DNA from: Eutreptiella sp. 'Long Island Sound 2002' | Taxonomy: Eukaryota; Euglenozoa; Euglenophyceae; Eutreptiales; Eutreptiaceae | Direction: 5' to 3' | Length of the DNA: 64,000 nt | Assembly: GCA_964036045.1 (NCBI GenBank) | Contig: OZ038381.1 | Coordinates: 117,139,790-117,203,789 of the forward strand | Shown: positions 8,413-46,665 of the stretch, piece by piece | How the letters are laid out: every line of letters begins with the position of its first letter | How positions within the stretch are numbered: the first letter of the stretch is position 1 | The notes under the pieces: generated by a model | The model's database searches: none | The model's input: only the letters and a program-made list of their open reading frames with translations | Told to the model about the DNA's origin: nothing | Translations under genes and position numbers: made by a program

Positions 8413-8785
8413 CCCTTGGTGCGCGTTTGAAACCCAATGTTGTTCCGGCCAAATTGTTCCAATGTTCTAGGCTATCTGGCCGGAACAAAAAAAGTTCAAA
8501 ATTTATTTACCCCACAACCAAGCCTACCCGTACATGGTGGCAAAATATGTTGTTTGCTAGCCTTGGGGGTCCCCGCTGGTATGCTCATATTTGTTGCCCG
8601 GCGCGTTGCCACGTGAAAAAAACTTGTTTTCAAAAACAGTTTTTGTTAGAACACCATTGGAACACCGCTAGAACAAGTTATTGGAACGTCGCCGGAACAA
8701 GCACTCTACAACAAGAGCAAAGCACAAGGAAGGGTAAAATGGTAACATACATTGTTGTGTAGGGTGCCCCCGGGGGCCCATCGGG

Positions 8786-11700
8786 TTAGTCTGTTGTTCT
8801 CACCTGAAAGTCCTGCGTGGTCGGGGGCCCGGCGGGCGGCCCCGAACTCTTGTCACCCGCCCCACTATCCCCCCCATCCCCCTCACCGACCACCACCCCT
8901 TCACCCACCACCCCTTCACCCTCCACCCCTTCACCCACCACCCCTTCACCCTCCACCCCTTCACCCTCCACCCCTTCTCCCACCACCCCTTCACCCTCCA
9001 CCCCTTCGACCTCCATCCTTTCCCCCTCCACCCCTTCGACCTCTTCCCCGACGCCCCCATCCCGGTTAGCCCCGGTAGCACCCAAACCTGCCCCCGGTCC
9101 CTCCCCTTCGTCTCCCCCGTCCCCGTCCCCGTTGTTGCGCTCGTCCCCCTCCTCGTCCGCGTCCGCGTCGTCCTCCTTGTCCTCCTCCTCGGCCGCCATC
9201 ATCTTGGCGAGGAACTTCTTCGCCTGCGTCTTGGTTTTCCAAACCGACGCTCTCGGGATTGCGAAGAGTTCGGGGTCTTTGGGGAAGGCGATCCACGTCT
9301 CCCCAACCCCGGGGGGGCCACCCGCGGCAAGGGCTTCTTTGCCCTGCTCGATCCCCCACTGCCCATTGTCCCGAAAAACTACATACACTTGCTCCCCCGC
9401 TTTGTATTTGCACCCCCCCCCCCTCTTGCCTTTGGCTTGGCCTTGGGTTGGGGTTGGGGGGGCTGGGCCTTGGGTTGGGGGGGCGCAGCTCTCTTGGGAG
9501 CCTTGCGAGGGGGTTTGGTGGGCTCCTTGGCCGGGGGGCGGGGCTGGGGCTCCTCGAACGCCGAGGAGTCGGTGGTGGACCCCGAGGAGGAGTCCGTTGA
9601 GGAGTCGCCGGACGACTCCTCGCTGGAGGACTCCCCTGGGAGCCTCTTCCTTTTTTGGGGGGCTGGTTTTGGGGGCGCTCTTGGGTTCCCGCTTGGGGGG
9701 GCGTTGGGGTTTGGGTTTGGGTTTGGGTGCTGTTTGGGGGGCTGGGTGGGGGTTCGGGGGCACGCGGGCGGGGCGGGGGCCTCTGCGGCCACTTGTTGGC
9801 AGTGCGGCGGCGCTGGGGACATGTCGCCAATGCTGCCCCACCCCTCAATGCGCGTCGCCAGAACGCTGCCGCGGCCTGCCACGTAGTCCATCATGGCCGT
9901 GAGGAACTCGAGCACGGCGACGGGCTGCAAGTGCAACTGCTGAAGCAACGTACCCAAATAGATGGGCCGAGGATCGCTTCCTGGCCAACGAAGGATCACC
10001 CTAACGGCGCGCGGGTCCGAAGGGTTGACCTGGATGTCCTCCACCTACATGGAGGATAGCCACGATGAGTGTTCCAACGACGTTCCAATAAGCTGTTCTG
10101 GCGACGTTCAAAAGACTTTTCAAACGTTTTTTGGTGACAGATTGGAACGTCGCCAGAACAAACTGTTTGGAACGTCGCCGGAACAATGCACCAGCACGCC
10201 AAGCATGTGCATTTTTGGGCCCTATTGGCCATGTGGACATGCTTGCGGGGGGGCATACCCGCACGCGCGTGTCCACGTTCTCCTTGATCGCCGCCAACGC
10301 TTGCCGCAATTGCGAGGTCCGCGTGCGCTCACGTTCCACTAGCACTGCCCCAACGGCAGATTGTTGGTGCCGCTGCGCGTCGTCCTCGCACTTGACACGT
10401 AGGGCGCCAGGCCGCGACAGCGTTTGGCCAACGACGAAGCCATGGTATTTGCCTTCGTTCTCAACCACATAGATGCCGTCGCGGAGGATTCGGGTCCAAT
10501 TGGCCCGAAAGAGGACGGTGTCCTTGCGGGGAGTGGCCCTCACCTCGCCAAGGCCGTGGTCGGCCCAACGCTCAAAAATGAGGTGCCAATGGCAACTCCC
10601 CGCACTGACAGAGCCCGCGGTTAGAAATTAGCCCCCCTGCGCCTTGCTGGGGAGCCAGTCGTTGGGGAGGGGTGCCGTGCGCCCTGTCCCCAACCCGGTC
10701 ACCCAGGACACCGGGACCCCCCCTGGCGCGGACCCCTCCTCCCGGCGCCAGCGGCAATCACGCTGCTCCTTGCAGTGCAGTTGCTTGTGCACGAAGCGCT
10801 GCAGCAGCCAACGGAGCGTGTAAATGGTGGGGTGGGGGGCTCGTGGGACACAGGCGTCCAAGGCGGGGGGGGTTGGGGCCTACCATCTCCCTTGTCCAGG
10901 GAAAATTGACAGCTTTTGCTGCCAGGGATGAGCCAAGTCGGTTGCGCATCCGATCGGTAATGCGCAAGACGCCGCCGGCGTCATCCCCCCCCCCCTCCCC
11001 ATCCCCATCCCCCTCCCCATCCCCATCCCCCTCCCCCCCCCCTCTTCTTCCTCTCTCTTAACCCCCGGGTTAGCCCTCCGCTCTTCATCCTTCTCATCCA
11101 GCACCACCTCACCCAGCTCCACAATGTCATCGTCGTTGACACCCCCTTCCTGTTTCACCTGCACCTCCCCACCCATGCCCTGCAACTCCCTTTCAAGCAC
11201 CTCCACCGCCTTTTGCGCCTCCCTTACCCGCCGGTTCCCCTCCAGAACCCTCTCGCCCGCGTGCCCCCCCCCGGTGATGTACCCACGCCGCCGGCACTCC
11301 GCCAATTTCGCAGACCATTTTTTCACCCGGCGGCGGAGGCTTTCAACATTGCCCCTCGCCTCTTGCAGCTCCCCCAGAACCACGGCGTGCTCCCGAACCC
11401 CCCGCCCCCGTTACTCATTGAGCTCCCAGTCGAGGGCTCGGGCAACTGGGGGCGATGCGCTTGGAGAGGCGCGACTGGCGCGGCCCCTTGTGGGGCAGGC
11501 CGTGGCGCCTCCGATGGCCGGTGAGCGGGGGTTGCCCACGGAGGATGTTTGGGAGCGCCCTGAGGTGGGGGAGGGGCTGGCGAAGCCAGCGCAGAGCTGC
11601 TGCGTGGCTCGGACCGCGTGGCCCCCTGTGCCCCCAGTGGGGCTGGCGGGGGTGGTGCAGCCAGTGCTGCCCCCAGGGCCTCGGTCTCGGTCATCCCGTC

Positions 11701-12894
11701 CTGCAGACAAGGATGCCGGAGAGAGGCCAACCCTACCCAAACACCTTGTTCCGGCGACGTTCCAACAACCTGTTCCGGCGACGTTCTGGCGATGTTCCAG
11801 TGGCCGCTGGAACGTCCCCAGAACGTTGACGGAACAGGTTGTTGGAACGTCGCCGGAACAGTGGAAAATAGGCACAGTTCCACGCGCGCACAGGGCGCAC
11901 TGCCTGCACTACGGCCCCGTGGGGGGGGGGGGGGCATCCACTACAAAGAATCCTAGCCCCTTTATGGGCATGGGGCACGAATTATCACTGGGGGTTCTTG
12001 GGTTTTCCCCTTCCCCTGGACAACAAAGAGTCCTAGCCCCTTTATGGGCATGGGGCACGAACAATCACTGGGGGTTCTTGGGTTTTCCCCTTCCCCTGGA
12101 CAACAAAGATTCCTAGCCCCTTTATGGGCATGGGGCACAAATAATCACTGGGGGTTCTTGGGTTTTCCCCTTCCCCTGGACAACAAAGATTCCTAGCCCC
12201 TTTATGGGCATGGGGCACAAATAATCACTGGGGGTTCTTGGGTTTTCCCCTTCCCCTGCACAACAAAGATTCCTAGCCCCTTTATGGGCATGGGGCACAA
12301 ATAATCACTTGGGGTTCTTGGGTTTTCCCCTTCCCATGGACAACAAAGATTCCTAGCCCCTTTATGGGCATGGGGCACAAATAATCACTGGGGGTTCTTG
12401 GGTTTTCCCCTTCCCCTGGACAACAAAGATTCCTAGCCCCTTTATGGGCATGGGGCACGAATAATCACTGGGGGTTCTTGGGTTTTCCCCTTCCCCTCAA
12501 CAACAAATCATCCAATTCCTAAAGAGCAAAGAGCAAAAGGGACCTAGGGGGGAGCGGGGGGAGCAGGGCAGGCAGGGACACACAAACCCAACGCACTGAT
12601 TTCCACTGCGCGCAAAGCGCGCCAAAGCATACACCCAAACCCAAACCCAAACCTAGGCCCAAACCAAAACCCGCACCCGAACCCACACCCAACCCCTAGC
12701 CCAAACCCAAGCCCAAACCCACACCCAAGCCCAAACCCACACCCAGGCCCAAGCCCAAACCCACACCCGGCCCCAAGCCCAAACCCAAGCCCAAACCCCC
12801 ACCCCAGCCCAAACCCGCAAACCTGCATATTCTTGGTGGCCTTCAGAAGCGCCAACATCATTTGCATCATATCTGCGCTGACGGGCGCGGCCAT
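8786..12894 (-). CDS. Transposon C ORF2, multi-domain protein, three exons
   Basis: Exon 1 (12823-12894) starts at ATG, encodes 24 residues ending KNMQ, and stops at a GT donor. A long intron follows, filled with CCCAAA repeats and an 80-bp satellite. Exon 2 (about 11710-10259) encodes a Pro/Ala-rich stretch, a coiled coil with basic heptads (VESLRRRVKKWSAKLAECR), an acidic Glu-rich part, then TLRWLLQR and CHWHLIFERW blocks that match transposons A and B. Exon 3 (10044 down) starts EDIQVNPSDPRAVRV, matching exon 3 of A/B, then a Ser/Glu run, a basic-proline run, a globular block (YVVFRDNGQWGIEQG to KTQAKKFLAKMM) and an acidic Gly/Glu tail ending PPTTQ, after which GTGAGA is a plausible donor. 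Frame changes occur at G runs. A TAA at 10628-10630 lies in frame between conserved blocks. Function is unknown; a DNA-binding or structural partner of ORF1 is only a guess. Confidence 0.65.
10045..10258 (-). other. Intron in transposon C ORF2
   Basis: About 214 bp from GTATGC to CATGTAG. Contains inverted ggaacgtcgcc / ggcgacgttcc repeats. Its 3' junction matches the A and B introns ending at 34241 and 44905. Confidence 0.75.
11942..12505. repeat. 80-bp tandem satellite, seven copies, inside an intron
   Basis: The word tcctagcccctttatgggca starts at 11951, 12031, 12111, 12191, 12271, 12351 and 12431, an exact 80-bp period with few substitutions, so recently expanded. It falls between ORF2 exons 1 and 2 of transposon C. 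Confidence 0.95.
12620..12822. repeat. CCCAAA/CCCACA hexamer-like repeat
   Basis: Runs of cccaaacccaagcccaaac type. On the minus strand the frame reads Gly/Phe or Trp/Val dipeptides. It directly follows the exon 1 donor of C ORF2, so it is probably intronic rather than a protein tail or true telomere. Confidence 0.85.
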
Positions 12895-14826
12895 GGATAG
12901 GAGCAGAAGAAAGAAGAGAGCTGAGGAACGGGGGTGGTGCAGAGGGGGTGGTCTCTAGTGCAGCCCTGGGAACACAAGGCACATGTCGAACAGCAGCATA
13001 TTGGTGGAGATGAATGTGACAGTACAAGAAAACCCATTGCAACACTTGCCGCAGGGCGTCGGCGTCCGAATCAATGGATGCCTGCGAGCGACCGCAGCTG
13101 GCGGTCCCAGTAGCCGTTTGCCGGCCACCGCCCCGGGCACTGTGTTCGTTGAAAGCCTGCTTCAGGAAGCGGTTAAGGCTTTCGACAATGTCATTGGAGA
13201 ACATTGCCAATCCGCACGGCCAAATGTTGTCCAATACGCGATCCGCATCCTCCTCCAGGCTCAGGAGGTAATGGGATGCGGACCTAGGAGCACAATGCTC
13301 CCGGAAGGCAGCTGCCGCTGCCCGGCATTGGGGACGCGTACCCACCTGATAGGTGTGGTACAGGTCCTTCAAAAGCTTCGCCATCCCCATCACAGCCCTA
13401 TAGAGGGGCTCCTCCGGCCCAACGGACAGCAACAATGCAACATCGGGCCAAGCCGCAAACAGGCGCGACGTCTCCTCACCATCCGGGGAACAATCCTTGC
13501 CTAGGCGGCACCCAGTGCGATGCTCATGCAATACCGCCTGAATCGCCGCACGCGACACCTCATCGCCCCCGGCTAGCGGGTCTGCCGCCAACCGCTCAAT
13601 GTTGGTCATTTGCAACCGGCCCGTCGCCATGCAACAGTGCAGAATGCACATGACAACGCGGCACCGGGCAATGACCACCACTGGTTCCACGGAACAACTT
13701 GCGGCCTTCAGCGATGGTGTTCCCAACAAGAAGGACGTCCGCTTTGCGTGGTCCGACTCGGTGGTCCGGACCACGTCTTTGCCCCCCACACAGCGGCGTC
13801 AGAGTCCCAAATCCCCTCGTTGTATAGTGACCCCACTTGTGGGGCCGGTGTGATCCCGATAATGCGGCGCACCCAGGGGGAATCACCACCGAGCCACGCA
13901 TCGGCCGCTTCCTCATGGGAATTGAAGACCACCCAGTGGGTGTCCACGACCTCCTGGATGGCCTAAGAAAAAAACATCAATTTTGTTGGAACCAGATTGT
14001 TCCGGTGGCGGTTCCAACGAAACACTTGAACGTCGCCGGAACGTCCCCGGAACAAGTTATCGGAACGTCGCCGGAACAACACGGTGTGTGCGCGGCACAC
14101 CTTAATATTGTCTTCCCAAAGGGTTGCTAGGGTCGCCATTGCTTTGTCCCCGCAGATTGCGAGGCCGCTGACCCACACACAGGCGGGAATTCGTCCCCAA
14201 AGGCCCATGTTGGCGATGGACACAAACAATTGGGACCACTCCCCGCTTGCGCAGGGGTAGCCATCCCCCCTGACAATGAAAGTCAGGGGGAACGACCAAT
14301 CGATCATGCGGCACAACGGGGGTTGGCTAGCAATGTAGCGGAGCCATGATGCCCACGGCCAACTGATGCCCGTGGCCTTGGGATCCGAAGTGCTCACCGC
14401 GGGGGCCAGCTCCAAGGGGGCCAGTAGATCTTGCTAGCGCTGCTGGAAAGCCCTCTCAGGGCAAATCGGACGGGCGAATGGAAGGCCCGTGGTCGCGGTG
14501 TACTTCAGCCCCCGGAGGGTGTACACTTCCGAGAGCGTGCGCCAAGCAGATTTGGGCGCACGCAGGTTGAGGATGAGCTCGCAACACCCATCGGGGGGGA
14601 GCACCTCGGAGGCGTACTTGGCGATTGCCCCGTGCTGTATCTCGCGTACACAGCTTGGTTGGGCCAAGCGCACGGCCACCGCAAATTGGCGGCGGGCATG
14701 TGGAGAGGAGATGGGCCATTCCGCTAGGAGCTCCCCAACAAGATCCCCGTCCCAGAGGCTAACAGCACTAGCCAAATGGACGAGATGGGTGGTTAATTGC
14801 GCAACGCGGGTTTGCGATCTAGGCAT
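12895..14826 (-). CDS. Transposon C ORF1, candidate transposase, two exons
   Basis: Starts at ATG 14824-14826. Exon 1 (14826-14101) aligns with B and D: LILNLRAPKS, ATGISWPWASW, then TFIVRGDGY and GLAICGDKAMATL. Intron 13963-14100 is GT-AG. Exon 2 (13962 down) carries VGSLYNEGIW, MCILHCCMATGRLQ (a CxxH), YLLSLEEDAD, and NDIVESLNRFLK followed by NEHSARGGG. The conserved acidic residues, CxxH and downstream E resemble the layout of RNase H-fold transposases of the hAT/MULE kind, so cut-and-paste transposition is inferred, not shown. The frame shifts once at a G6 run near 13787. TAG at 14434-14436 lies in frame within conserved exon 1. The exact end is unclear because the frame runs past the ORF2 start. 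Confidence 0.7.
13963..14100 (-). other. Intron in transposon C ORF1
   Basis: 138 bp between AAG|GTGTGCC and TTTCTTAG|GCC. It is made of GTTCCGGCGACGTTCC units and their complements, the motif of element C's ends. It sits at the same codon position as intron 42045-42172 of B. Confidence 0.85.
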
Positions 14827-15939
14827 GATGAAGCTACAACAATGAACTACGAAGCGAAATTTGGCAATGCATACCTCTAGGGGAAGATGCCCGTCGACCC
14901 ACCGAGCATTCAGGCAAGGAACAAATACCAAAATGGGACCCTAGGCATGGCCACAATGCACAAATCAAACGGGAGAATGGGGACGCCAACGTTGAAAAGT
15001 CATACAACGCTGCGTCTGAACTACAAGAAATAGCAGGCTTGCAAATGGATACGAAAAGTTCGAAATGTGTACACCTAGTGGAAGGTGGCACCAACGGCTC
15101 ACAAGATGTCAACACGGCCCCGATGGGAAAGACAAGCCTTGGACGCGTTATACATGCAAGAAAGAGACAAAAAACATCATTTACGAACTTGGAAACTCAT
15201 GGTGATGGATCTGGTTATCTGGCCTGCGACACTTGTTCCAGTGGTGTTCCCAACGAGATTGTTCCGGCGGGAATTGTTCCCATTGGGAATATTCCAGTCG
15301 GGAACAACATTGGGTTTCAAACGCGTACCAAGGGTAACCTAAACAAGGGTTTACCGAGCGCACCACGCGTGGCCTACCCTTGAATGCGTCATGTGAATGC
15401 ACAAGAGACACGGCCGCAATGACTCTACCAAGGGGTGGCCCCTCCTGGGCTTACTCACCTTACCTACCACAATGTCAATCTCAAACATGATGACTCTACC
15501 AGGGGGTGGCCCCTCCTGGGCTTACTCACCTTACCTACCGCTGCAAGCGAAAGGAGAGCAAACAACATGACATGCACACATGCAGGCATATTTTCCCCAA
15601 CCCACCATTTTCCTGAAGTGAAGTTCCCTTGTCTCTGTGGGGGTGGGGGGGGGGGGGAAACTGCCCTTTTATCCCCATTTTCCTGAAGAAGTTTCCTATG
15701 TGTCTGGTGGGGGAGGGGGTGCACTTTTATGATTCGAAACAGGGGGGGGGGGGGTACTCTGCTTTCCCCCATGTTGAACGTTTTCCGAGGTTCCATATTT
15801 TCCCATTTTCCACTTGTCCACTAGTCTGATATTGGGGGGGGGGGGGTCTATCATGGGGGGCTTGGGTGTTGGGGGTTGGGGGGGGTGGTCCATAAAAGTC
15901 TGAAGTCTGAAGTCTGATAGCCCATTGGGTTACTATACC

Positions 15940-19092: not shown

Positions 19093-19393
19093 GCGGACAT
19101 CGATGGGCACCCGGGGTTGGTCCTCAAGGCGGTTCGCGATGAGGAGATGGCAAAGCCGCTGCCACTGGCACCTTCTCAAGCTTCACGGGTGATTGATGCA
19201 TGGCAGCTCGGGTTGGAGGACCCACCGACATGGCCTGCAACACTCACCATCAGCGACATGCACAGTCACATGGCCAAGCATGGGGGTACTTGCTCGAACC
19301 GTGGCTGCATTGTGAGCGTGCGACAAAGGAGGGCGGCCCTCCCTCTGCAGCTGCGTTTGCTGGTGGCTTGCAACGACAGTATGGTGCCTGCCC
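19093..19393 (+). CDS. Possible exon cut by transposon D insertion
   Basis: Follows an acceptor-like cttccgcag at 19084-19092. It reads ADIDGHPGLVLKAVRDEEM and on through SDMHSHMAKHGG, then continues best in the next frame (YLLEPWLHCERATKEGG) after a G5 run. Coding is interrupted at 19394 by the D target site. Open frames resume on the other side at 26588, so D may have inserted into this gene. Product unknown. Confidence 0.4.
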
Positions 19394-19903
19394 TAGTGGC
19401 CTAGATTAAACCCAATATGGTTAACATGTGGCCAAAACTTAACACGGTAATCCTAAGTTTGCATTTCTTTAAGGGGGGTTAGGGGGGTTGACGTGAAAAT
19501 TATGACCCCCATGGGTTGCCTTACGGGCTTGGGTGCCATTTCCCCCGGGGGTTGGTGGGGGGGGTCCTACCCATGTGGTTGTTTCAAAATGTTAAAATGG
19601 CTCTCGGCTTTAACTTTTGTTTTTAATTTTTGGATTAATATTGGAAAAGTTAAAAATTAATGAGTCGCCACTATTAATATTAATCTCATAAATATTACCA
19701 CTATTCCCCAAATATCAACCCCCCTAACAATGGCACAAAACAACATGTAATGCATTATGTGTGTGTTCATGCATGTTGTGCATGGCCATTGTGGCCCATT
19801 GGGTCCCTATGCGGGCCCTCACACCTCATGGGACCCCATGATGTGGTCCCACGTCTTCGTGAGTCGGGATGGGGGGTTAGCGGGGTTAGTGGGTTCGGTG
19901 GTA

Positions 19904-22022
19904 AACCCCTGCCCCAAAAATAAGAACTGGCCCCAAACTAAGAACCGCCCCAAAAAGAAGAACCGCCTGGGGCTTTCCACCGAGCGGGTCAAAAATAAGA
20001 ACCACCTTGGACACAAGCAAGACAAAAGCGGGGAACACTGAAGAGTTTTTTGTGCATCAGTTACTTGCGGAAATACGAAGTGATGGTAGCTTGGCGCTTT
20101 GCTGGTGGCACGTTGCAGATAGGATCAGGTTCAGGCACTGCCTGACCCCTTGCAGCTACCATTTGCTGAACATGCTGCTCCACCTCAGACATTGGAACAA
20201 AAGTGTAAGAGGGCAGAACCCGCACCTTGATGTCAGATGGGTTAGCAGGGAGATAGCCCATCTTTTTGAATACGTGATGTCGGTTGGCATTGCCAGCACT
20301 GATGGTTAAGTTGTGGGCCTTGGCGACAATGCGTGTCACCAACACCCGTCTGTCTCTGGCTGACAACCCTTGCCCTTTCAGCTTAGGCTCCACCTCTGTG
20401 GTAAAAATATTAGCATAATTATCTTTGAACAGGAAGTTGAAATATGTGTCCCGGTATTGCCCAACAGATGTTGTTGATTCCTTCAAACGGGCAAACAACG
20501 TCTTATCCGAGACATTGCATTGGGCTTTGGGGGTCCAATGTGGTTTGGCTGCATCCCCAACCAGCATGCGGGACACATCGCCGAGAAATCTGTCCCACTC
20601 GGCATAAATAAGAGACATCACATCTTCATCCACCACACCACTAGACTGGAAATACACAGACACATCAGGGTGGTATAGGGGTTTTTCGTGTTTGAACACA
20701 TTCCCTTCACCCTTGAAAATCACAATGGGCTTTGGCTGTTTTTCAATGGGAGTGCCGTCCACATTTACCACCACAAGGGGCACGTATGTGAACATTCTCT
20801 TGGACTTGGCTGCGGCATTGCTTTCGAATGCAATTGTTCCCTCCTCCATCTCTCCTTTTGCTACGACCAACAGCTGCAGAAAATCGCCATTGAAACTCAC
20901 GGGGGCCTCATCAAAATTACCAACCACTGACACCGGCTTCAAACGATGCATAGCTTGCACATATCTGTGAAATGCACGCATGCGGGCAACCAATTCGTCT
21001 TTTGAGATCTTCATTGATCGTTTTTGGCGCACAATGTGCAGATTGTGCCGCCGGCGGAACCCCCTTTTCCAACTACGACCCAGCTTGGCAGTGATGCCCA
21101 GGTTGCCCTTCACTTCTCGAACCTTTCGCCACAGCACGGAGGGGCGAACTTTGTTTCCATTTGCAATCTCCTGCCGCCTCCATTCAACAACGGTGCTCTC
21201 CAGGTCTGTGTGCAGGGCATGGCGTCCGCTCCCGCTCACAGATTTTCGGCTTCGCAACGCCTTTCGTGCCTGTCCAGGCTCCACCAGAAGTTCCATGATG
21301 GTGGCCTTTTTTTTGACATTTCCTGACACTTGCTTTACACCACCGTTGCTTGAGAGACGGAACTTCCGGGCAGTGGCATGGTAATTTTTGCACTGTTCGT
21401 AGTGCAAAACCATACAAGCTTGTTCTAGAACATCAGGTCGGCGCCTCTTTTGACGGGTTCCCTCCATCTTTTGAGCAAAGCGCTCAATCACCTTTTGAAC
21501 TTGCTCCTCTGGACTTGCACTGGCGGGAACAGCACCAGGGACATCATCACCACCATGTCCAGCAGCCCCAGGGACAGAAGGAGGTCCAGGCTCCACAGCA
21601 TCTGCACCTCCAGGCAAAAGAGCATCTGCACCTTCAGGGTCCACAACATCTGCACCTTCAGGTTCCACAGGGTCCCCAGCATCTGCACCTCCGGGATCTG
21701 CAACATCTGCAGGGACAGCGGCATCTGGAGTAGGCAGCTCACTCTCCGCAACGTCCACAATGAGTCTTGCCAGATCAGCCTCCGGAGGCTCAATCAACTG
21801 CTCAATCACCTCCATATCCGAGTCCTCAGATGAGTCTGATTTTTCCACGTCAATGGAGTCCGCACATTGTGGGTGCAAGCCATCAAAAATGTCCGTTTTT
21901 TGTGAAGGCAGGAGGAGGTGTCAAACGCAATAGGAACCGCGCCCAAAAATAAGAACCGCCCCTGCTACCGCCACCAACTGGGTCAAAAATAAGCACCGGT
22001 TCCTATTTTTGGGGCGGGGGTT
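19904..22022 (-). mobile_element. Pogo-like DNA transposon, complete
   Basis: Termini AACCCCTGCCCCAAAAATA (left) and, reverse-complemented, AACCCCCGCCCCAAAAATA (right), continuing about 27 bp with few mismatches. Both sides carry TA (19902-19903, 22023-22024), the target site of Tc1/mariner/pogo elements. Near both ends the word aaaataagaacc is repeated in several orientations, likely transposase binding sites. It contains one transposase gene and lies in the 3' tail of transposon D. Confidence 0.93.
20061..21815 (-). CDS. Pogo/Tigger-like DDE transposase with C-terminal PIP box
   Basis: Open frame from a TGA upstream of 21878 to a TAA at 20061-20063. The first ATG is at 21813-21815; the 21 residues before it contain none, so I start there. 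Counting from 21878 (605 codons): acidic and Gly/Asp/Pro repeats 1-120; N-terminal HTH about 145-190; CENP-B-type HTH about 220-285 (TDLESTVVEWRRQEIANG, SWKRGFRRRHNL); DDE core with D323 in NFDEAPVSFNG, D442 in MLVGDAAKPHW and D477 in TTSVGQYRDTYF, giving DD34D as in pogo-like DDE_1 enzymes. It ends in QATITSYFRK, a match to the PCNA-interacting consensus QxxIxxFF. Catalyses cut-and-paste at TA. The frame is intact, so the copy may be young. Confidence 0.93.
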   Translation of the reverse strand: MEVIEQLIEPPEADLARLIVDVAESELPTPDAAVPADVADPGGADAGDPVEPEGADVVDPEGADALLPGGADAVEPGPPSVPGAAGHGGDDVPGAVPASASPEEQVQKVIERFAQKMEGTRQKRRRPDVLEQACMVLHYEQCKNYHATARKFRLSSNGGVKQVSGNVKKKATIMELLVEPGQARKALRSRKSVSGSGRHALHTDLESTVVEWRRQEIANGNKVRPSVLWRKVREVKGNLGITAKLGRSWKRGFRRRHNLHIVRQKRSMKISKDELVARMRAFHRYVQAMHRLKPVSVVGNFDEAPVSFNGDFLQLLVVAKGEMEEGTIAFESNAAAKSKRMFTYVPLVVVNVDGTPIEKQPKPIVIFKGEGNVFKHEKPLYHPDVSVYFQSSGVVDEDVMSLIYAEWDRFLGDVSRMLVGDAAKPHWTPKAQCNVSDKTLFARLKESTTSVGQYRDTYFNFLFKDNYANIFTTEVEPKLKGQGLSARDRRVLVTRIVAKAHNLTISAGNANRHHVFKKMGYLPANPSDIKVRVLPSYTFVPMSEVEQHVQQMVAARGQAVPEPDPICNVPPAKRQATITSYFRK

Positions 22023-22042
22023 TAGGGTTCGGGTTCGGGAGG

Positions 22043-30414: not shown

Positions 30415-30629
30415 TTCCCTTGGTACACGCTAGAAGACCCAATCTTGTTCTAGCCTAGAACACTCTAGCCTAGATGTTCTAGCCTAGACTAGATCAATAC
30501 TAGAACGATATAATGTCGACCCAGATGTGCCAATTTCTTCATTGTTCCGCCGTGTGTGCTTACTATTGTCCGTAGTGCATTGTTCCATGGTTCCTTCTCT
30601 CGTGCTTAGATATTAAACATATTTTTGCT

Positions 30630-32600: not shown

Positions 32601-35229
32601 GCTGCTCCGCCAGGTATTTTGTTGTGCGTTCAAGCGCTGATCTAGGGAAGCGTTCTAGCGTTGATTTAGGTAGCACGATCGGTCGCTAAAAAGTTGCTGG
32701 AACGCCGCTAGAACGGTTGCCTAAAACGCCGCTAGAACGCTCTTGCGTTTTTTGTAGCAACAACAGACGACGGAGATGCTAGCGCAGGTGATGGCGGCGC
32801 ACGAACCGGCCGAGCAGGCGCTGCAGGCCGAGCAGGCCGAGGCCAAGCCCACGGCCGCGGCCGAGGCCAAGCCCAAGCCCCCCCCCCTCGCCAAGCCCAA
32901 GGGCAAGCCCCAACCCCAAGCCCCACATCCACAGTCGCCACCCCTTCACCTGTTGGCCGCCAAGAAGTCGGCGAAGGCGGCCCCGGGGCACACGGAGGTG
33001 GAGGAAATGCGGGGGGGGCTGCGAGGTCTCTCGGCTTCACTCGTAGCTCGGAAGGGGGCAAATGCCAAGCTGGAGAGCAAGGTCTCCCAATGGGAGACCA
33101 AGCTAATGAAGTTGCAGGTGATGGGGGATGAGGACCGGATCCGCATGGCGGAGCAATCGCTATGCAAGGCGAACGAGAAGGTGGAGGAGAAAGAGGAGGC
33201 GATTGAGACGCTGGATCGCAGTGTGCGCAGGATGGAGACAATTTTGCCGGCAGAGGTGGATAAGGTGAAGGCCGAGGAGGTGGAGGAGGTGGTGGAAGTG
33301 GAGGTGGAGGCGGAGGAGATGGTGGAGGAGACGGTGGAGGAGGAGGTGGAGGCGAAGGTGGTGGTGGAGACGGCGGTGGGGGGGGGGGGGGGGGGCAGTG
33401 GCTCAGGTATTTGTTGCGGTCCAGGGATGCGGGGGCCATCCAGGACCTACCATGGGACCCGGCCATACTGGCTGGCCCCCAACCCCCTAACGTGGACCAC
33501 CCCCTCCCTGTCGCCCCGGAGAGTCCGGTTCGGACGCTCCGGTTTTTGTTGCAGCGGGTGCAACACCGGCTGTTCGGGGGGGGGGGGGGGGTATGGGTGG
33601 ACGAGGGGGGGGGGTCCACTTGGACAAGCCCCTGCCCTTGGGGGAGGTCCGAGGGTGGTGGGGGCGGCAACGGGAGTTGCCGGGGAAGAAATGGGGGAGA
33701 CGTGCCCCCGCATGAAAACGGGGGTGAAGATGTTCGAGTTGGCGCAACTCAACCTCTTCACCCCCGAGAGGAAAAACGGGAGGCCACCCACTAGCAATTC
33801 ATCGCCAACTGTTGGCAGGGGCTGGGCTTGGGGGGGATGGAGTATGGGGCGAGGACCTGGACCTGGACGCTGACCTGGTCGGCGCCGATGGACATGGGGG
33901 GGTTCTACCCGGAGTTGGCGAACCGCGGGGCGTAAGCCGGGATGGTGCACGGCATCGCCTCCGAGCACAAGTCCAAGCCCAAGCCCGCCGCTATCCCCGC
34001 AATTTGGCCCCCCCCATAGCCGTAACCCCCCCCAACCCCCGGGACGCCTTTGCCAGGGCCCCGGGGGCCATCTCCCCTGCCCTGGACCGCCAAGGCACGG
34101 TATGCTGACCGCGTTCTAGCATTGATCTAGTGAACTGTTCTAGCGCTGATCTAGCCGACGCCATCGCCGCCGCTAGAACGCCGCTAGAACAGTTGCCTAG
34201 AACGCCGCTACAATGCAGCTGCATTATGTTTCTGTTTCTAGGTTGTCAGCGTGCAAACGTGTGGAGCCGACCCCCGCGGGGTGCGCGTGGAGGGGCACGA
34301 TGGCGGAGGCCGACCGCGCCTCGTGGGGGTCACCGAGTTGGGCCGGATGATGGGGACTGACCCCAATTTGGCCCTCTCAGCGTTGGACGGTTTGGGTAGG
34401 TGGGAGGCAGACAGGAGTGCGGGGGGCATTGACTTGCAGCGCAAGGGTTGGGTGAGGGTGCAGGATCGGGCGGGCGAGACTAGCAGCAAACGCAGCAGCA
34501 GCAGCAGCAGCAGCACCAACCGCCGGGAGATGACATCCCCCCCGGGGCACCCAAACCCAACCCCCCCCCCCCAAGGCTCCCAAGAAAAAACCTCGCTTCG
34601 AGAGTAGCGAGGAAGGCGCCCCCCCCCACCCCCCTGAAGTCCAGCAGACTCAGCCCAAGGCGAAGCCCAAGCCCAAGCGCAAGGGCAAGGGCAACATCAC
34701 CCCCCCCTCAAAACCCCAAGCACCCCCCTTGCAAGATAGGGGCCGGGACCCCTATGGGAATGTGCCGTGTGTGGAGGACACCCGGTATGTCCCTTGGGCG
34801 GCGGGGGGCAATGGAAGGGCCTTGGGCCAAGTGACGATGTTGGGGGATTGGGATCAGGAGTTGGACCCGGGGGAGTGGTGGGTGGTGTTGCAGGGGTCCA
34901 ATGGGGAGGGGGGGAAGAAGGGGAAGAAGAGGAAGCGGGAGAAAGAGGGGGGCACCTTCCGGGTGCCGGGGGGGCTCCTCTTCCGCACTAGGGAGGACGC
35001 GGAGGCCCACCTCCGGGAGGCCTTGGGTTAGGGGGACAACGGGGACAACGGGGATGATTGGGATGACGAGGGGGACGAGGGTGGCGACAAGGGGGAGGGG
35101 CATAACAAGGGGGGTGAGGTGGGGGGTGACAAGGGCGGTGAGAAGGAAGGGGACACTGGGGGGGGTGACAAGGGGGATGCCGGGAGCAAGGATGAGCCCC
35201 GGCAACCCCCCACCACGCAAGAGGGGTAA
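32575..35229 (+). CDS. Transposon A ORF2, multi-domain protein, three exons
   Basis: Exon 1 32575-32613 (MASKDLIEQLLRQ), intron 32614-32757, exon 2 32758-34099, intron 34100-34241, exon 3 from 34242. Exon 2: Ala/Gln/Pro/Lys-rich start, coiled coil about residues 80-190 of the exon (LESKVSQWETKLMKL, VEEKEEAIETLDRS), acidic Val/Glu run, then after a G-run shift LPWDPAILAGPQPPNVD and TLRFLLQRVQHRL. Exon 3: VRVEGHDGGGRPRLVGVTEL, a poly-Ser run from AGC repeats, KAPKKK-FESS-like linker, RDPYGNVPCVEDTRYVPW, LGDWDQELDPGEWWVVLQ and TFRVPGGLLFRTREDAEAHL, then an acidic Gly/Asp tail after a TAG, ending PPTTQEG-TAA. If TAR is sense the frame goes on to TGA at 35422. Role unknown. Confidence 0.6.
32614..32757 (+). 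other. Intron 1 of transposon A ORF2
   Basis: GTATTTTG to TTTTTTGTAG, 144 bp, the same length as its B counterpart (43279-43422). Repeats of gttctagcg-like and cgctagaacg units form a hairpin. Confidence 0.85.
34100..34241 (+). other. Intron 2 of transposon A ORF2
   Basis: GTATGCTG to TTTCTAG, 142 bp, between GGCACG and GTTGTCAGC. Filled with gttctagc...gatctag and gctagaacgccgctagaac units. Same position in B and C. Confidence 0.9.
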
Positions 35230-35788
35230 ACTCCGTGTTGTGACTCGCGAATGGGGGCCTCGGGGGGCAGGGGGGCTAATCGGGCTAATCGGGCTAATCG
35301 GGCTAACCCACCTCCAAGTGACCGGGCGCCGGCCCGCCAAGTGACCTTCCAAGTGACCTATGGCGTGCGTGGGGGGGCTAACTGGGCTAACCAAGGGGTG
35401 GGGGGGGAACCCGGCGCTATGTGAGTTCAGTCCAGCATCGGGACTCTCTGACTGGCCACGGCTGGCCATGGTAGCCGGGGCAGCTTCTCTTTGAGGAGGG
35501 GCGGAGCATTCATATATATTGTTGTAGCAGCGTTCTAGCGAACCGTTCTAGGGGTGCTCTAGCGGCGCTCTACAACGCCGCTAGAACCAAAAATTTTTGG
35601 ACTCCGAAATTAGGTGAAAACAATGAAACTGTGAAAAAAAGCTATGGGCCCCCTAGTACGGATAGGGAGGTTAGACACCTTACCTCCCCCCCCCCCGGGG
35701 GGGGTATCCCCCTCTTTATTTCGTTCTAACCACTCTAGCGGCGTCTAGGATAGAACAAGATCGGGTCTTTTTGCGTGTACCAAGGGTT

Positions 35789-36990
35789 GTGGTGCGGGGT
35801 AATGGGCAACTGTGCGCCCGTGGGAGTTGGTCGATTGGTCTAGTGAACCTTGGGGTAAAGGCGAGAACACCTGCCTCCATATGCGTCGTCAGCATGGGTG
35901 TCAAGGGGGACAAGGATATGGTTCCCCTGGGCCAAAATTGGGATCAACATCTACAAGTTTGTAGTCTGCATTTTCGTGTTCAAATGTTGTTCATAATTTG
36001 CCTCTTCATAAATCGAAAATACCGTTACCCCTCCCCAGCAAAGCCCCCCGTGCCGAGAAACCCAAAGCGCCCCCCCTAACCACCCACCCAAACCCACCAA
36101 ACCTAGAACGGGCCCCAGTGGCAGGGCCAAGTTGTTCGGGTCGGGCACCTTGTCGCCGTCGGAACACGCACTCCCCCACGGAAACGGGAAGGAGGTGAAG
36201 CAGAGGCAGCAGCAGCAGCATCAGCGCAAGCTGCGTGAGGAACCCCCGTCTTTGGAGGGGCATGAGCCACGTGACCCCTTGCTTGGTGCACAGATTTTTG
36301 TGCCCTACACCGATGGTGTCGAATTGGGGGTTGTGACCTCCGTTGTGGAGGGAGGGAGAGTTTAAGTTGAGCACCCAAGGGAAAAGCAGATGCTTCGGGT
36401 TGAGAGGCATCTGTGCTCTGCCTCTTATGCTGCAGCAGTGACCCATTGGGTGCAGCAGGAATCTAATCTAAAGGGCTGTAATGCTCGTAAACACATAGTG
36501 CCATTGTGGCTGCTCACGGTCAGCAACAAACTTGAGCACGCGCACAGATATTCTAGTGATATTGATGTCCTGCTTTGCAGACAAGGTCTTTTTAGGCATA
36601 CCAAGGGTCGCCCGTAGTGCACCCATGTAACACGTCGAACTCCGGGTTCCAACCATTTAACAACTTCTCAAAATGGGGGGCTTCCGCACCACGGCTTGGT
36701 GCAACACATCCCAACTGAGGTCTTTGCACGCCAGCACCCCTACCGTGTACGAGAGGGGGCTTACAGACAGAAGGGGCCTTGGGGGAGAAGCAGTCGAGCC
36801 ACCTGTCCCACAGCCGATAATCACGGACATGGTCGCTGACACATGGGTGCTGAAGAGTCACATGCTACATCCGGAGTGCAATTTTAAGCGGTGTGACTAT
36901 TTTCGCCTCACACCACTCCACAACATCACCACTTTTCTCGCACTTCACTGGGACATCGTCGACAATATCCGGCAGGGCCCTTGGTAAAGG
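35789..36990 (+). pseudogene. Relic E: continuation after transposon A
   Basis: 35789-35960 continues the ORF1-type frame: VVRGNGQLCARGSWSIGLVN, VVSMGVKGDKDMVPL. Then gtttgtag begins a probable intron ending ctccccag near 36038. Downstream, a frame reads LFGSGTLSPSEHALPHG, a Gln run, IFVPYTDGVELGVVTSVVEG, then across TAA (36363-36365) VEHPREKQMLRVERHLCS, and across TAG (36615-36617) CTHVTRRTPGSNH to a TGA near 36836. A second plus frame (36673-36987: VLKSHMLHPECNFKRCDYF) overlaps the end. Product unknown. Confidence 0.5.
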
Positions 36991-41048: not shown

Positions 41049-41276
41049 AACCCTTGGTACACGCTAGAAGACCCCATCTCGTTCTAGCCTAGAACGCTCT
41101 AGCTAGAACGTTCTAGCCTATATTAGATCAATACTAGAACGATATAATGTCTACCAACATATCCCAATTTCTTCATTGTTCCGTGCGTGCGTGCGTGCAT
41201 GCTTGCTGGCTATTGTCCGTAGTGCATTGTTCCATGCTTCCTTCTTTCCCGCTTAGATATTGCACATTTCTTTGCA

Positions 41277-43232
41277 ATAAAACGCCCCGCCACTACCCCC
41301 CTTGCTCCCTCCTCACCCGGGAAGGATACTTCCCTCTTGTCTAAAGCACTACGGGAGTTGAGTGGGGCCTCAAACCTCAAGGATGAGCGGGTGGGCCATT
41401 ACTTGGCCACGTGGGCGCTATCATGCCCCCTAGCACGGCGGCAATTCACCAACGCCGTCCAACATGTGAACTCCGCCACTTCTACCCAAACCACGGGTGA
41501 GGCATGCAAGGCCGCCATTGAGGCATACACCGCCTCCCTACTTCCCCCCACCGCCATGTGTGAACTAGTGCTCAACATGAGGGCCCCCAAGTCCTCGTCG
41601 AGGACCCTTTCGGAGTTCTACACGCTCCGTAAGTTGGAGTATCACCGCACCGTCCCTAGTGGCCCCTACTCCCGTCCATTTTGTACCGAGGGGGCTTTCC
41701 AAGCCCGGTGGAAGGAGTTGGTCACCCCGGTGCAATTGGATGACCCCGTTGCCACGGTGTTGCCCAACGCCACCGGGATCTCATGGCCCTTCGCCTCATG
41801 GGTCACATACATCCTCTCCCGGCCGGGCTTGGTGCGGTCAATCAACCGCACCTTCCCGTGGACGTTCATCGTCCGGGGAGATGCCTACCCCGTGGCCGGG
41901 GGCAATTGGACCCAACTCACCATCTCCTTGGCCAACTTCGAGCGCTTGGCCCGCTCCCCAGCGGGCCTTTGGGTGTTGAGCATGGCCAATTGCGATGACA
42001 AGGCCATGGAGACGCTTGGGACGTTGTGGAACAGCAATTGGGAGGTACTCCTCTCACCTAGTACCTTCCACTCGTTCTAGTTTTGATCTAGTCGGCCTCA
42101 AACACCGCTCGCTAGACGCTAGATTGGACTAGACTAGAACGAAATTAACCACCCCCCATGTCTCGTGTTTAGGTGATTCAAGATATCATCGACACGGGGC
42201 TGGTCCAATGGGGGGCCTCCAAGGAGGAGGCAAAGGTGATCCTCGGGGGGGGGTCAACCGTGGACGCGACGGGTGATCGGGGTGTCCACATGCCCCCGAG
42301 CGGGCTCCATGTTGAATGAGGGCATATGGAATGCCCCAACGAAGACTTGGGAGGGTAGTGCTAACCCCCGGACCATGGAGGGTGATGAGGCCAACTACAC
42401 GGCCTTCCTCCTTGGGACGCCGTCCTTGCAAGCCGACGGCTGCAGTACGCAGCCCATTTTGAAATTGCCGCGTGCCTGGGACGTCTTGTGCATTTTGCAC
42501 TTGACAACGGCCATGGGCCGCTTGTTGGGGGAGCTTGTCGATCGGGAGGCTGGGTTGGTCACCCCTGCGCTCCGTCGAGACCTGCAGGTTCTCTTGTCGG
42601 AGAGGCGTGCAGGTTGGGGCGTTTATGGGTCAGCATCCCCGGATGGGGAGGTGACGGCCAATTTTTTTGACGCATGGCCGGATATTGCTAAATGCCTCGG
42701 CATTAGGCCAAGCATGGCCAAGTACAAGGCCATCGCGAACATGTGGGACCTGCTGCAGGCCCTTTATTGTACATATCAGGGCCCTAACCCATTGAATTGT
42801 GATGCTGGTGCGCGCGATTTCCGGCGACACTGCACTGCTCGAACAGCATCATGGTATCTACTAAGCCTTGAGCAGGATGTAGATACCATGTTGCAGAACA
42901 TTAAGCCGTTTGGCCTGGCTATGTTCTCCGCTGACATTTCGGAAAGCATTAACCGCTTTCTGAAACATGGTCACAACGAGCACAGCAACCGGGGGGGGGG
43001 GGGGGGCTGTCGGGTGGAGGGGGTGGACGAGGTGTCGGGTCGTCAATTGTCGGCCATCCACAGGGAGGCCAATGTGCAAGCGCAGTGCATGACATGGTTG
43101 CTCGCGTACTTTGACGTGTCGTGGGTTGTGCATGGGGGGCCGCGGTCGCAAGTGCCATGCTTGGGCAGGGATGCCATGGAGGTAAGGAGGGGCCAGGGTC
43201 ACATGCAGGCTCCCCTGGACCAGAATATTTGA
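41277..43232 (+). CDS. Transposon B ORF1, candidate transposase, two exons
   Basis: The codon aligned with the ATG of A is ATA (41277-41279), so the start is lost. Exon 1 runs to 42044 without stops: LRELSGASNLKDERVGHYLA, LVLNMRAPKSSSRTLSEFY, TFIVRGDAYPVAGGNWTQL, MANCDDKAMETLG. Intron 42045-42172. Exon 2 from 42173 has one extra base in a G9 run (about 42245-42253), then GSMLNEGIWN, VLCILHLTTAMGRLL, ASPDGEVTANFFDAWPDIAK, YLLSLEQDVDTML, ISESINRFLKHGHNEHSN, ending TGA at 43230-43232. The RGD and GDK/DDK acidic residues, CxxH (CILH) and the E of SESIN are the candidate catalytic set, conserved in A, C and mostly D. Mobilises this family by inference. Confidence 0.8.
42045..42172 (+). other. Intron of transposon B ORF1
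   Basis: GGGAG|GTACTC to GTGTTTAG|GTG, 128 bp, containing cgttctagttttgatctag and ctagactagaacg. Canonical ends, conserved position in A, C and D. Confidence 0.9.
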
Positions 43233-43242
43233 ATCCAAGTGG

Positions 43243-45897
43243 GCTACGCGAGAGCAGTTGGACGAGGTGGTGAGGCAAGTATATTTCGTGCTGTGCGTTC
43301 TAGCGGTGATCTAGGGAATCGTTCTAGTCTTGATCTAGGCAGCAGGATCGGCCGCTAGACTGTCGCTAGAACGCCGCTAGAACAGCTGCCTGGAACGCCG
43401 CTAGAACGCTCCTGTGCTACAGAACGCAGCGACCCAGTCGCTCATTGCGCACATCTTGGAGGCGGACAGGCGTGCAGCTTCGGCTGAGGAGGCGGAGCCG
43501 AAGGCCGAGCAGGCCCCGCACCCCAAAGCCCCCCTCGCCAAGCCCAAGCCCCAACCCCAAGCCCCACATCCACAGTCGCCACCCCCTCCCCCGTTGGTAG
43601 CCCGGAAGGGGGCGGCAACGTTGGAGGAACCGGCGGAGGTGGAGGTGGCGCGGGGAGAGCTCAAAGGGTTCTTGGATTCCCGCGCCGCCTCCAGGGCGGC
43701 CAAGACAAGGGCTAAGACGAAGGTCTCGGCCTGGGAGGCAAAATTGCGCAGCCTCGTGGAGGAGGGAGCGGAGGAGGAGAGGATCCTGTAGGGGGAGGCC
43801 AACCTTCGCAATGGGAAGGCGAAGGTGGCCGAGAAGCAGGCGGCGATCGAAGGGTTCCATCGGGCGGGAAAGCGGAGCGAGAGGGAGTTGGCGGCGGTGG
43901 CGGCGAGGGTGAAAGACGAGGAGGTGGACCAGGTGGTGGAGGTGGACGTGCATGGCGAGATGGAGGAGGCGAGCGTGCAGGAGGAGGGGGAGGAGACCAA
44001 GGTGGTGGAGGCGGCACCGGCGGGGGGGGGGGGGGCGAGCGACTGGCTCAGGGGGTTGATGGGGTCGAGGGCTGCGGGGGGCCTCCCGGACCTGCCATGG
44101 GATGGCAGTCCTGGCTGGCCCCCACCCCCCGAACCTGGACACCCCCCTCCTCGTCTCCCCGGAGAGTCCGGTATGGACTCTCCGGTTTTTGTTGGTGCGG
44201 GTGCACCACCGGCTGTTGGGGGCGGGGCGGTGGGTATGGGTGGACCGGGGGGGGGGGGGGGGTTGTCCACCTGGACAAGCCCCTGCGCCTGGGGGTGGTC
44301 AAGGGGTCGTGGGGGTGGCAACGTGAGTTGCCGGGGCAGGGGAATGAGCGGTGGGGGGAGGTGGGGACCCCCCCCGAAAGGGGGGTGAAGATGTTTGAGT
44401 TGGCGCAAACCAACATCTTCGGCCCCGAGCGGAAAAAGGGGGGGGGGGGGGGCACCCACTGGCGATTCGTCGCCCACTGCTGGCAGGGGCTGGGCTTGGG
44501 GGGGGTTGAGTGGGTGGGGAAAGCCTGGGTGTGGACGACGACCTGGTTGGCGGTGCTGGACTTTGGGGGTTTCAACCCCGAGGCGGCGAACCGGGGGGTG
44601 TATGCCGGGGTGGTGCACGGCATCGCCACCCGGCCCAAGCCCGCCGCAGCCCCCGCTGGCGGCCCCCCGTAGCCGCGCCCCCCCAACCCCGCGGAGGCCT
44701 TCGCCAAAGCACTGGGGGCCATCTCCCCCGCCTTGGACCGCCAAGGCACGGTATGTCGATTGCGTTCTAGCGGTGATCTAGCGAACCGTTCTAGCGCTGA
44801 TCTGGCCACCGCCGTGCCGCCGCCGATAGAATGTCGCTAGAACGCCGCTGGAATAGCTGTCTAGAACGCCGCTAAAACGCTCCTTCATTTTGTTTGTCTC
44901 TTCAGGTTGTCAGCGTGCAGACGTGTGGAGGCGACCCCCGCGGGGTGCGCGTGGAGTGGCGCGATGGTGGAGGGCGGACGCGCCTCGTGGGGGTCACCGA
45001 GTTGAGCCGGATGTTGGGGACGAACCCCAACATGGCCCTCTCGGTGCCGGAGTATTTGGGTAGGTGGGAATCGGGCAGGAGTGCGGGGGGCATGGACCCG
45101 TAGCGCAAGGGTTGGGCTAGCTTGCAGGACCGGGGGGGGGGATGACAGCAGCAGCAGCAGCAGCAGCATCAGTAGCAGCAGCACCAACAGCAGCACCAGC
45201 AGTGGGGGGAAGACACCCCCCACCAAGGCCCCCCAACCCCCCCCCAAGGCCCCCAAGAAAAAACCCGGCCCCCGCCACTTCGAGAGTAGCAAAGAAGAAG
45301 AGCCGCCGCCCCCCAAGCCCAAGCCCAAGGCCAAGCCGCAGGCCAAGGGCAAGGGCAAAGCCACCCCCCCCCAAAAACCCCAGCCCCCCCGTATGCACGA
45401 AAGGGGCCGGGACCCCTATGGGAATGTGCCTGGTGTGGGGGACACCCGGTATGTCCCTTGGGCGGAGGGGGACAATAAGCCAAGTGACGGTGTTGGGGGA
45501 TTGGGATCAGGAGTTGGACCCGGGGGAGTGGAGGGTGGTGTCGCACTAGTCGAATGGGGAGGGGGAGGGGGGAAGCAGGGGAAGAAAGGGAAGAAGAGGA
45601 AGCGGGAGAAAGATGGGGGCACCTTCCGGGTGGCGGGGGACCTCCTCTTCCTCACCCGGACCAGGCGGAGGCCCACCTCCGGGAGGCCTTGGAGGCCGGG
45701 GACGACAGGGACGACGGGCATGACGGGGATGACGAGGGGGACGAGGGTGGTGACAAGGGGGAGGGGGGTGACAAAGGGGGTGAGGCGGGGTGTGACAAGG
45801 GCGGTGAGAAGGAAGGGGACACGGGGGGTGGGGGTGAGAAGGGGGGTGCCGGGAGCAAGGATGAGCCCCGGCGACCCCCCACCACGCAAGAGGGGTA
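43243..45897 (+). CDS. Transposon B ORF2, multi-domain protein, three exons
   Basis: Short exon 1 ends VVRQ at 43278; the ATG of A is altered here. Exon 2 43423-44750: Ala/Pro/Lys-rich start, coiled coil with TAG (43789-43791), acidic Val/Glu part, G-run shift near 44025, then LLVSPESPVWTLRFLLVRV, VKMFELAQTNIFGPERKK, THWRFVAHCWQGLGLGGVEW, and TAG at 44670-44672 in frame before PAEAFAKALGAISPAL. Exon 3 44906 on: VRVEWRDGGGRTRLVGVTEL, TAG (45101-45103) where A has CAG, poly-Ser, KAPKKKPGP, RDPYGNVPGVGDTRYVPW, a GGTFRVAGDLLF segment, acidic tail to PPTTQEG-TAA (45895-45897). Order matches A and C. Unknown function; the coiled coil and repeated small globular blocks suggest a self-associating or DNA-bridging protein. 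Confidence 0.6.
43279..43422 (+). other. Intron 1 of transposon B ORF2
   Basis: GTATATTT to GTGCTACAG, 144 bp. Direct gttctagcggtgatctagg units on the 5' side and inverted cgctagaacgccgctagaac on the 3' side make a hairpin. Confidence 0.9.
44751..44905 (+). other. Intron 2 of transposon B ORF2
   Basis: GGCACG|GTATGTCG to TCTCTTCAG|GTTGTC, 155 bp, with the same gttctagcg / cgctagaacg hairpin. Equivalent to 34100-34241 in A. Confidence 0.92.
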
Positions 45898-46665
45898 ACC
45901 TGCGTGTCGCAACGCGTGAATGGGGGCCTGGGGGGGCAGGGGGGCTAATCGGGCTAACCGGGGTGATCGGGCTAACCCACCACCAAGTGACCCGGCGCCG
46001 GCCCGCCAAGTGACCTTCCGAGTGACCTATGGCGTGCTGTGGAGGACTAACCGGGCTACACGGGGGTGGTTGGGGGGGACCTGGCGCTCCGTGAGTCGGG
46101 TCCAGCATCGGGACCCTGTGATTGGCGACGGCTGGGCATGTTAGCCGGGGCAGCTTCTCTTTGAGGAGTGGCGGAGCATTCATATATATCGTTCTAGCGG
46201 CGTTCTAGCGAACTGTTCTAGCGGCGTTCTAGCGACGTTGTAGAACGCTCGCTAGAACGTTGCTAGAACGCCGCTAGAACGAAAAAATTTTGGACTCCAA
46301 ACGCACGTTAAAACAGTGAAATTGTGAAAAAAAGTATGGGCCCCCGAGTATGGATAGGAGGGTCCAAGTTAGACACCTCATCCCCCCCCCCTTCAGGGGG
46401 GGTATCCCCCTCTTTTTTCGTTCTAGCCGCTCTAGCCGGTTCTAGGCTAGAACGAGATTGGGCATTCTAGCGTGTACCAAGGGAACGGTGCCTAAGAGAT
46501 GTGGCGAGACCGAGGTGGTAAGCTTTTGTATATTGTGTGGCGGCATGGCAGGGCTACGATGTTGCAGAGAACACCGAGGAACCTATTATGTCCGCTATCT
46601 GTCTCACAACTTCTCAATGAAAAAAGACTATCATTGACCCTAGTGGTAGATAGCGTTTCTTCTCA

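Follow-up and report, generated by a model that had tools for sequence, protein, structure and literature searches.

The window analysed here, a 64,000-nt stretch of contig OZ038381.1 (117,139,790-117,203,789) within the 2.28-Gb genome of the euglenophyte Eutreptiella sp. 'Long Island Sound 2002', holds four DNA transposons (A-D) as well as a relic (E), which are probably branches of a single family with two genes, ORF1 and ORF2. A and B are close to each other, C and D are more distant, and relic E is interrupted by A. A short word found in the terminal inverted repeats (TIRs) and subterminal regions of each lineage recurs in the introns of that lineage's own genes, and the word differs from lineage to lineage. 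Relatives were fetched from the same genome, and the comparison covers one genome and five lineages.

Transposons of the window and their genes

The following elements and parts of elements lie in the window:

30417..35786, plus strand: element A, with CCCTTGGT TIRs, flanked on both sides by TT, carrying ORF1 and ORF2, degenerate
41051..46483, plus strand: element B, of the lineage of A, with an AA flank at each end
8413..15334, minus strand: element C, coding on the minus strand, with a TA flank at each end
19390..26590 (limits approximate), minus strand: element D, with ends CCCTAGTGGCC / CCTTAGTGACC, 2-bp flanks that do not match and a nested Tc5-like insertion
29746..30416, plus strand: first part of relic E, with TIR CCCTTGGTTTTGTATGAA..GTTCATAC followed by ORF1 exon 1, which is broken by A
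35787..35955, plus strand: remainder of ORF1 exon 1 of relic E, 36% identical to the exon-1 end of C and 47% to that of D
35956..36044, plus strand: 89-bp piece of intron 1 of relic E, with GTTCATAATTTG and CTTCATAAATCG

An earlier note on this DNA had proposed a common ORF1/ORF2 set for A-D, and alignment bears this out for ORF1, whose amino acid identity over exons is 41-49% between B and C and 28-37% between B and D. For ORF2, tblastn comparisons of its pieces between lineages returned no match except between A and B, and the relation across lineages is drawn from gene order and short similarity recognised by eye. The insertion of A (30417 and 35786) split the first ORF1 exon of relic E and has TT at both borders. 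Matching 2-bp flanks were found in six of the seven elements with both ends read, viz., A (TT), B (AA), C (TA) and the genomic relatives L045 (AA), L059 (CG) and L065 (TA), the seventh being D. Well-kept ends start with CCCTTGG or CCCTAG, of which the decayed ends are variants; none of the ends read starts with CACTA.

No accepted Pfam family was found in eight ORF1 pieces and one ORF2 piece, nor in eight ORF2 pieces and one ORF1 piece, all of these being exons of partly degenerate copies. A PDB sequence search with exon 2 of B gave a single insignificant match (E 0.96), Rfam gave nothing at the gathering score, and structure prediction for part of ORF1 exon 2 gave a mean pLDDT of 38.3, which is too low to use. 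Viral contigs, searched by two protein scans and with the TIR pattern in one form, yielded no relatives of the family, and the pattern matches L001-L005 gave only insignificant ORF matches.

The transposon nested in D (19890-22010) has one 619-aa ORF (20061-21920) with a sub-threshold match to a Tc5-type helix-turn-helix domain and, by eye, inverted ends resembling ggtcaaaaataagaacc. A lone D-like end (GGTTAATATTT .. AATTAACCATGTTGG), likewise seen by eye at 16250-16340, is probably a further relic.

Introns and terminal words

Each of the elements A-D has three introns, one within ORF1 and two within ORF2, and all three are also present in L059. The introns and the 3' subterminal arrays of the window are:

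31390..31517, plus strand: A intron 1, acceptor mutated, with no exact GTTCTAG left
32614..32757, plus strand: A intron 2, GTTCTAG array
34100..34241, plus strand: A intron 3, GTTCTAG array
42045..42172, plus strand: B intron 1, weak array with two exact words
43279..43422, plus strand: B intron 2, array with spacing 11/13 and 11/11/24
44751..44905, plus strand: B intron 3, array
46189..46282, plus strand: B 3' subterminal array, a near-perfect palindrome with spacing 11/13/11; its counterpart in A is 35519-35590
13963..14100, minus strand: C intron 1, GTTCCGG array
11701..12822, minus strand: C intron 2, long, with an array at 11744-11863 and 80-bp tandem repeats
10045..10258, minus strand: C intron 3, array
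8645..8702, minus strand: C 3' subterminal array
25427..25570, minus strand: D intron 1, GTTAAT words, donor changed from GG to CT
24110..24342, minus strand: D intron 2, TTAATATT words
22910..23108, minus strand: D intron 3, TTAAT words

They are called as introns, and are likely to be spliced, because 10 of the 12 in A-D have GT..AG borders and the reading frame is kept across them, as judged for intron 1. The mutated borders are the acceptor of A intron 1 and the donor of D intron 1 (GG to CT relative to its relatives, against GT in seven D-like copies). The shared positions that the earlier note had reported appear to hold up: intron 1 occupies one common position by alignment in all lineages compared, D-like and E copies included, and intron 3 matches through short similarity, by eye, of the exon that follows it (the VRV exon). 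Intron 2 is matched by gene order alone. The 80-bp tandem repeat of C intron 2 (11939-12500) has a similar repeat in a mosaic genomic copy (L068 with L072).

The terminal word is GTTCTAG in A and B, GTTCCGG in C and GTTAAT in D, and each recurs in the introns of its own lineage, in the places where the earlier note had seen it. With exons as drawn in this analysis, the exact own words lie outside exons in 15 of 15 cases in A, 26 of 26 in B, 12 of 12 in C and seven of eight in D; other-class words outside exons number one in B, two in C and four in D. Allowing at most one mismatch, the window has 54 occurrences of GTTCTAGCG, of which 39 belong to A/B, every one of them inside predefined intron or terminal regions, while 16 of the 18 occurrences of GTTCCGGCG in C (28 in the window) fall inside the corresponding regions of that element.

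Comparisons free of chosen words, confined to introns of the transposon family, point the same way. Intron 8-mers are also present in the element's own 300-bp ends at 17.3% (A), 20.9% (B), 23.1% (C) and 12.1% (D), as against 0.8-8.6% in the ends of other lineages, i.e., they are 2 to 23 times commoner in their own ends; for exon 8-mers the share found in own ends is 2.1-4.1%. Measured with 7-mers against 300 dinucleotide shuffles, the match to own ends has z scores of 12.9 (A), 14.5 (B) and 9.0 (C), which no shuffle reaches, 3.2 in D (reached by 1 of 300) and 2.1 in relic E (15 of 300). The introns of A/B score 3.0-4.2 on the ends of C, and those of C 3.5-4.2 on the ends of A/B, a residual signal that is expected if the arrays descend from one ancestor.

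In the TIRs of A and B, the word occurs as a pair of inverted copies, a constant distance from the tip (CGCTAGAA..GTTCTAGC), as it does in E (GTATGAA..GTTCATAC); in C the inner word is kept and the outer one degraded, and the TIR of D reads ATTAA..GGTTAA. This placement argues that the word is tied to the transposition machinery and not to introns alone. The earlier note went too far in holding that the introns of different lineages have nothing in common: the arrays of A/B and C share a layout of 11, 13 and 11 bp (24) and the frame GTTC..GCG, despite their different cores (CTAG as opposed to CCGG). In the E copies, the spacings in intron 1 are 11, 13, 15 and 26. The fourth motif of the earlier note, GTTATCGCGG, which it placed in a probable intron at 37125-37249 in or beside relic E, shows no link to the family, there being no ORF1 or ORF2 match within 36600-37700 at E 0.01. 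That interval holds a cluster of GTTATCGCGG/GTTATTGCG ending in AG.

Relatives across the genome

The genome searches scored the best 139 of 5741, 150 of 4289, 122 of 6834, 150 of 3839, 40 of 49 and 122 of 7516 candidates. The class table drawn from them comprises 20 elements. It leaves aside L044 and L047 (5' end not read), L064 (whose 5' part holds another element's end), L014 (C itself) and L015-L043 (29 near-identical C copies, used for the analysis of constraint only), as well as L075-L077 (intron pieces only), L006-L013, L048-L057, L066 and L067. Five word classes are represented in the table. The 5' ends contain 58 own-class as against two other-class words and intron 1 contains 59 as against five; exon 1, over 14,882 bp, contains no own-class and two other-class words. 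Agreement of intron and terminal words is supported in five lineages, two of which, those of GTTCATA and GTTTAAA, are additional to that note.

GTTCATA was first read in relic E, in the TIR and the 89-bp intron piece, and then found in two fetched copies, L073 and L074, and in L068, which came to light beside a B-like copy; in these three, the first 140 bp contain 5-7 occurrences and intron 1 contains 4-6, with none in exon 1. The other new word, GTTTAAA, occurs 14 times in L059, in both TIRs, the 5' and 3' subtermini and introns 1, 2 and 3, with zero occurrences of GTTAATA and one of GTTAATT. In exon 1, this element is 79% identical to L061 and 65-70% to D, L058 and L060; the last three have GTTAAT words in both the 5' end and intron 1, and L061 has four in intron 1. 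L059 hence differs from these relatives in the word of its ends and introns alike. At least 21 near-identical copies of L059 intron 1 exist in the genome, 10 of them placed at ORF1 exon 2. Among ORF1 exon-2 copies of at least 92% identity that reach residue 1 or 2 (in the best 122 of 7516), a GTTTAAA intron stands directly upstream in eight of eight; another two of the intron copies lie about 500 bp before matches of the D query, as expected (among the best 150 of 4289).

On an ORF1 tree of 13 of the 20 elements, picked for long open frames, the five classes need four changes, the minimum, near-copies contributing to this figure; GTTAAT alone does not form one clade. For five lineages the chance of a perfect match between intron class and end class is 1 in 120, which does not amount to a blind test, since the sequences had already been inspected when the classes received their names.

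Further classes may exist, as three intron-1 relatives of 73-77% identity were seen, of which L075 and L077 have variant words such as GTTTCA without exact GTTTAAA and L076 has both. Many D-like copies (~61-66% identity, in the best 150 of 4289) have three TAG and one TAA in common within the aligned part, as though a single version with these stops had spread.

The intron-1 array of C could be compared with that of a second C branch, L044-L046, whose three members are mutually related and do not give independent comparisons. Divergence amounts to 6 of 75 sites in the GTTCC cores (8.0%) and to 18.7% in the 57-bp array as a whole, as against 80 of 240 other intron sites (33.3%) and 299 of 657 third codon positions (45.5%). 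The intron-1 array is thus conserved between the two C branches.

Elsewhere in the window, 49033-49297 and 56500-56764 form a 265-bp direct repeat, 92% identical, the copies standing 7.5 kb apart with, by eye, a CCHC-like frame between them, perhaps a long terminal repeat (LTR) retrotransposon.

Discussion

Taken as one proposition with the kinship of A-E, we regard it as probable that the word is the DNA site of a protein encoded by the element, the product of ORF1 or ORF2, and that this site is repeated in the introns and diverges together with the ends. Each branch would possess its own short word, GTT plus a variable core, in the TIR, the subterminal arrays and the intron arrays of ORF1 and ORF2, and the element-encoded protein would read it. 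As the specificity of the protein shifts, the terminal and intronic sites would shift too, through selection, array-to-array copying or both. The terminal sites would serve transposition; those in the introns would most likely be bound by the same protein, which would thereby hold back the transcription or splicing of its own gene. Such negative feedback would perhaps be a self-limiting brake, like the suppressor activity proposed for the subterminal repeats of Spm/CACTA elements.

Of the three reasons that the earlier note had offered for the match, binding-site arrays fit best because the word has a fixed place in the TIR, clearly so in A/B and E, the 11/13-bp spacing is kept in A/B and C, and the word in intron 1 is conserved between the C branches. 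Units of the introner kind fit less well because the position of intron 1 is constant and the 10 placed copies of the L059 intron all stand at ORF1 exon 2. Gene conversion may or may not have contributed, as the data do not separate copying from selection as the cause of the likeness between intron and terminal arrays.

In its strong form, copying would mean that the intron arrays were copied from, or repeatedly gene-converted with, the element's own subterminal arrays, in the manner of introners or miniature inverted-repeat transposable elements, and have no function in the intron. We consider this unlikely, but it has real points in its favour. The arrays of any one element resemble each other, with normalised scores averaging 0.29 (A), 0.38 (B), 0.47 (C) and 0.21 (D), and in comparisons of A/B with C a shared position brings no greater likeness than different positions do (0.19 in both cases), the grouping being by lineage and not by position. 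Of the at least 21 copies of L059 intron 1, 11 could not be assigned to ORF1, and an E-type copy with C-type 3' sequence indicates that exchange happens. Against these, the arrays of A and B resemble each other most where their positions correspond (0.63), more so than arrays within one element, which argues that there has been no wholesale homogenisation since A and B split and that conversion is not fast. Moreover, the CCCTTGGT/ACCCAAT end itself is absent from the intron arrays, and the constant position of intron 1 and the placement of all 10 resolved GTTTAAA introns at ORF1 exon 2 tell against copying.

A role at the RNA level, whereby palindromic introns would form hairpins that aid splicing or give rise to silencing RNA, the likeness to the ends being a by-product, seems improbable to us. 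Some arrays do fold very strongly (z -12.4 for the B subterminal array and -12.0 for C intron 2), and excess folding is also seen in C intron 3 (-7.9), A intron 3 (-4.7), B intron 2 (-3.8), D intron 1 (-3.2) and B intron 3 (-3.0). It is weak in A intron 2 (-2.1) and C intron 1 (-1.8) and lacking in D intron 2 (-1.2), D intron 3 (-0.2), the C subterminal array (+1.3) and A intron 1 (+1.6). Hence, we rejected hairpin RNA as the common denominator, and the hairpin form that the earlier note had given these introns is not general. The word also has its fixed place in the TIR, where recognition of DNA is expected. We give still less credence to the idea that the word has nothing to do with transposons, being either common to introns throughout this genome or a product of base composition. 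The words of D are AT-rich and simple, and with 7-mers its introns match the ends of B about as well as its own; but each word is specific to its lineage and hardly occurs in intron 1 elsewhere in the family, and the shuffles reach the observed match never in A, B and C and rarely in D, if more often in relic E.

Several observations weigh against the protein-site reading itself. No DNA-binding domain was recognised by Pfam in the ORF1 and ORF2 pieces tested. The match is weakest in D, whose introns have a z of 3.1 on the ends of B with 7-mers, much as on their own (with 6-mers, 4.2 on D and 3.2 on B). Outside exons, two GTTCTAG words occur in C, and two GTTCTAG and two GTTCATA in D; A intron 1 lacks an exact word, and three of the five A/B introns have one GTTAATT each. 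Spacing in intron 1 is irregular in D and L059, the 5' window of L061 (TIR not recognised) lacks an exact word, and the terminal evidence for the class GTTTAAA comes from one copy, L059. The E-type copy L068 is a mosaic (with L072), of E type in its 5' half (TIR, ORF1 exon 1 and intron 1) and of C type from ~1.75 kb. Finally, among the 29 close C copies, the array differs more than the remaining intron (4.21% vs 2.94%), partly through one change in C itself; together with the conservation between the two branches, this pattern would fit active lineages being under selection while inserted copies decay freely, other readings being possible.

Among known systems, the CACTA elements (En/Spm, Tam1, Tgm) come close in having two gene functions, a short target-site duplication (TSD) and arrays of motifs in both orientations below the TIR (PMC2613891, PMC4219821). 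The 2-bp flanks seen here fall within the 2-3 bp TSD of that group, and subterminal motif arrays are likewise present. In the portions of those papers considered here, CACTA subfamilies differ in their subterminal motifs, perhaps through coevolution with TNPA-like proteins, and binding at subterminal repeats is proposed to block the splicing of host introns (PMC2613891, PMC4219821). In contrast, the ends of the present family start with CCCTTGG or CCCTAG and not with CACTA, the pieces tested have no Pfam match to the tnp2-type transposase (Transposase_21), a remote relation still being conceivable, and its arrays extend to introns, whereas the CACTA motif is described in subterminal regions in those portions. 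Introners, too, are introns related in sequence to transposons (PMC9860276, as far as the part considered goes); the introns described here, however, lie inside the transposon's own genes, with intron 1 at one shared position in the lineages compared, and no family TIR was seen at their borders when read by eye. Like the nonconventional introns of euglenids, which according to part of one account can form stable secondary structure (PMC6221363), some fold strongly, but GT..AG borders prevail in A-D and hairpins are not general.

In open-access full-text literature, surveyed by titles and the starts of abstracts, with subscription papers mostly outside its scope, we found no description of such matching between intron and end words. 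The piggyBat transposase presumably belongs to a protein family other than that of the A-E elements. In piggyBat, as partially consulted, an element's own sites restrict its activity, and the restriction comes from the ends (PMC11707139).

More tentatively, arrays of sites in spliced introns might let the protein switch off its own production without sites in the coding sequence; when the word changes, the TIR, subtermini and introns would all follow, and the introns might then be a record of changes in specificity. Introns are usually treated as drifting filler, whereas here those of a mobile element track its terminal word in five branches, with the spacing kept in two. With the word classes, orphan ends and orphan introns within this large genome can be matched to one another and to transposase branches. 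The system lends itself to testing directly how the DNA specificity of a transposon changes while its ends are kept, and it bears on the coevolution of multiple sites through conversion or selection and on introns as possible carriers of transposon feedback control.

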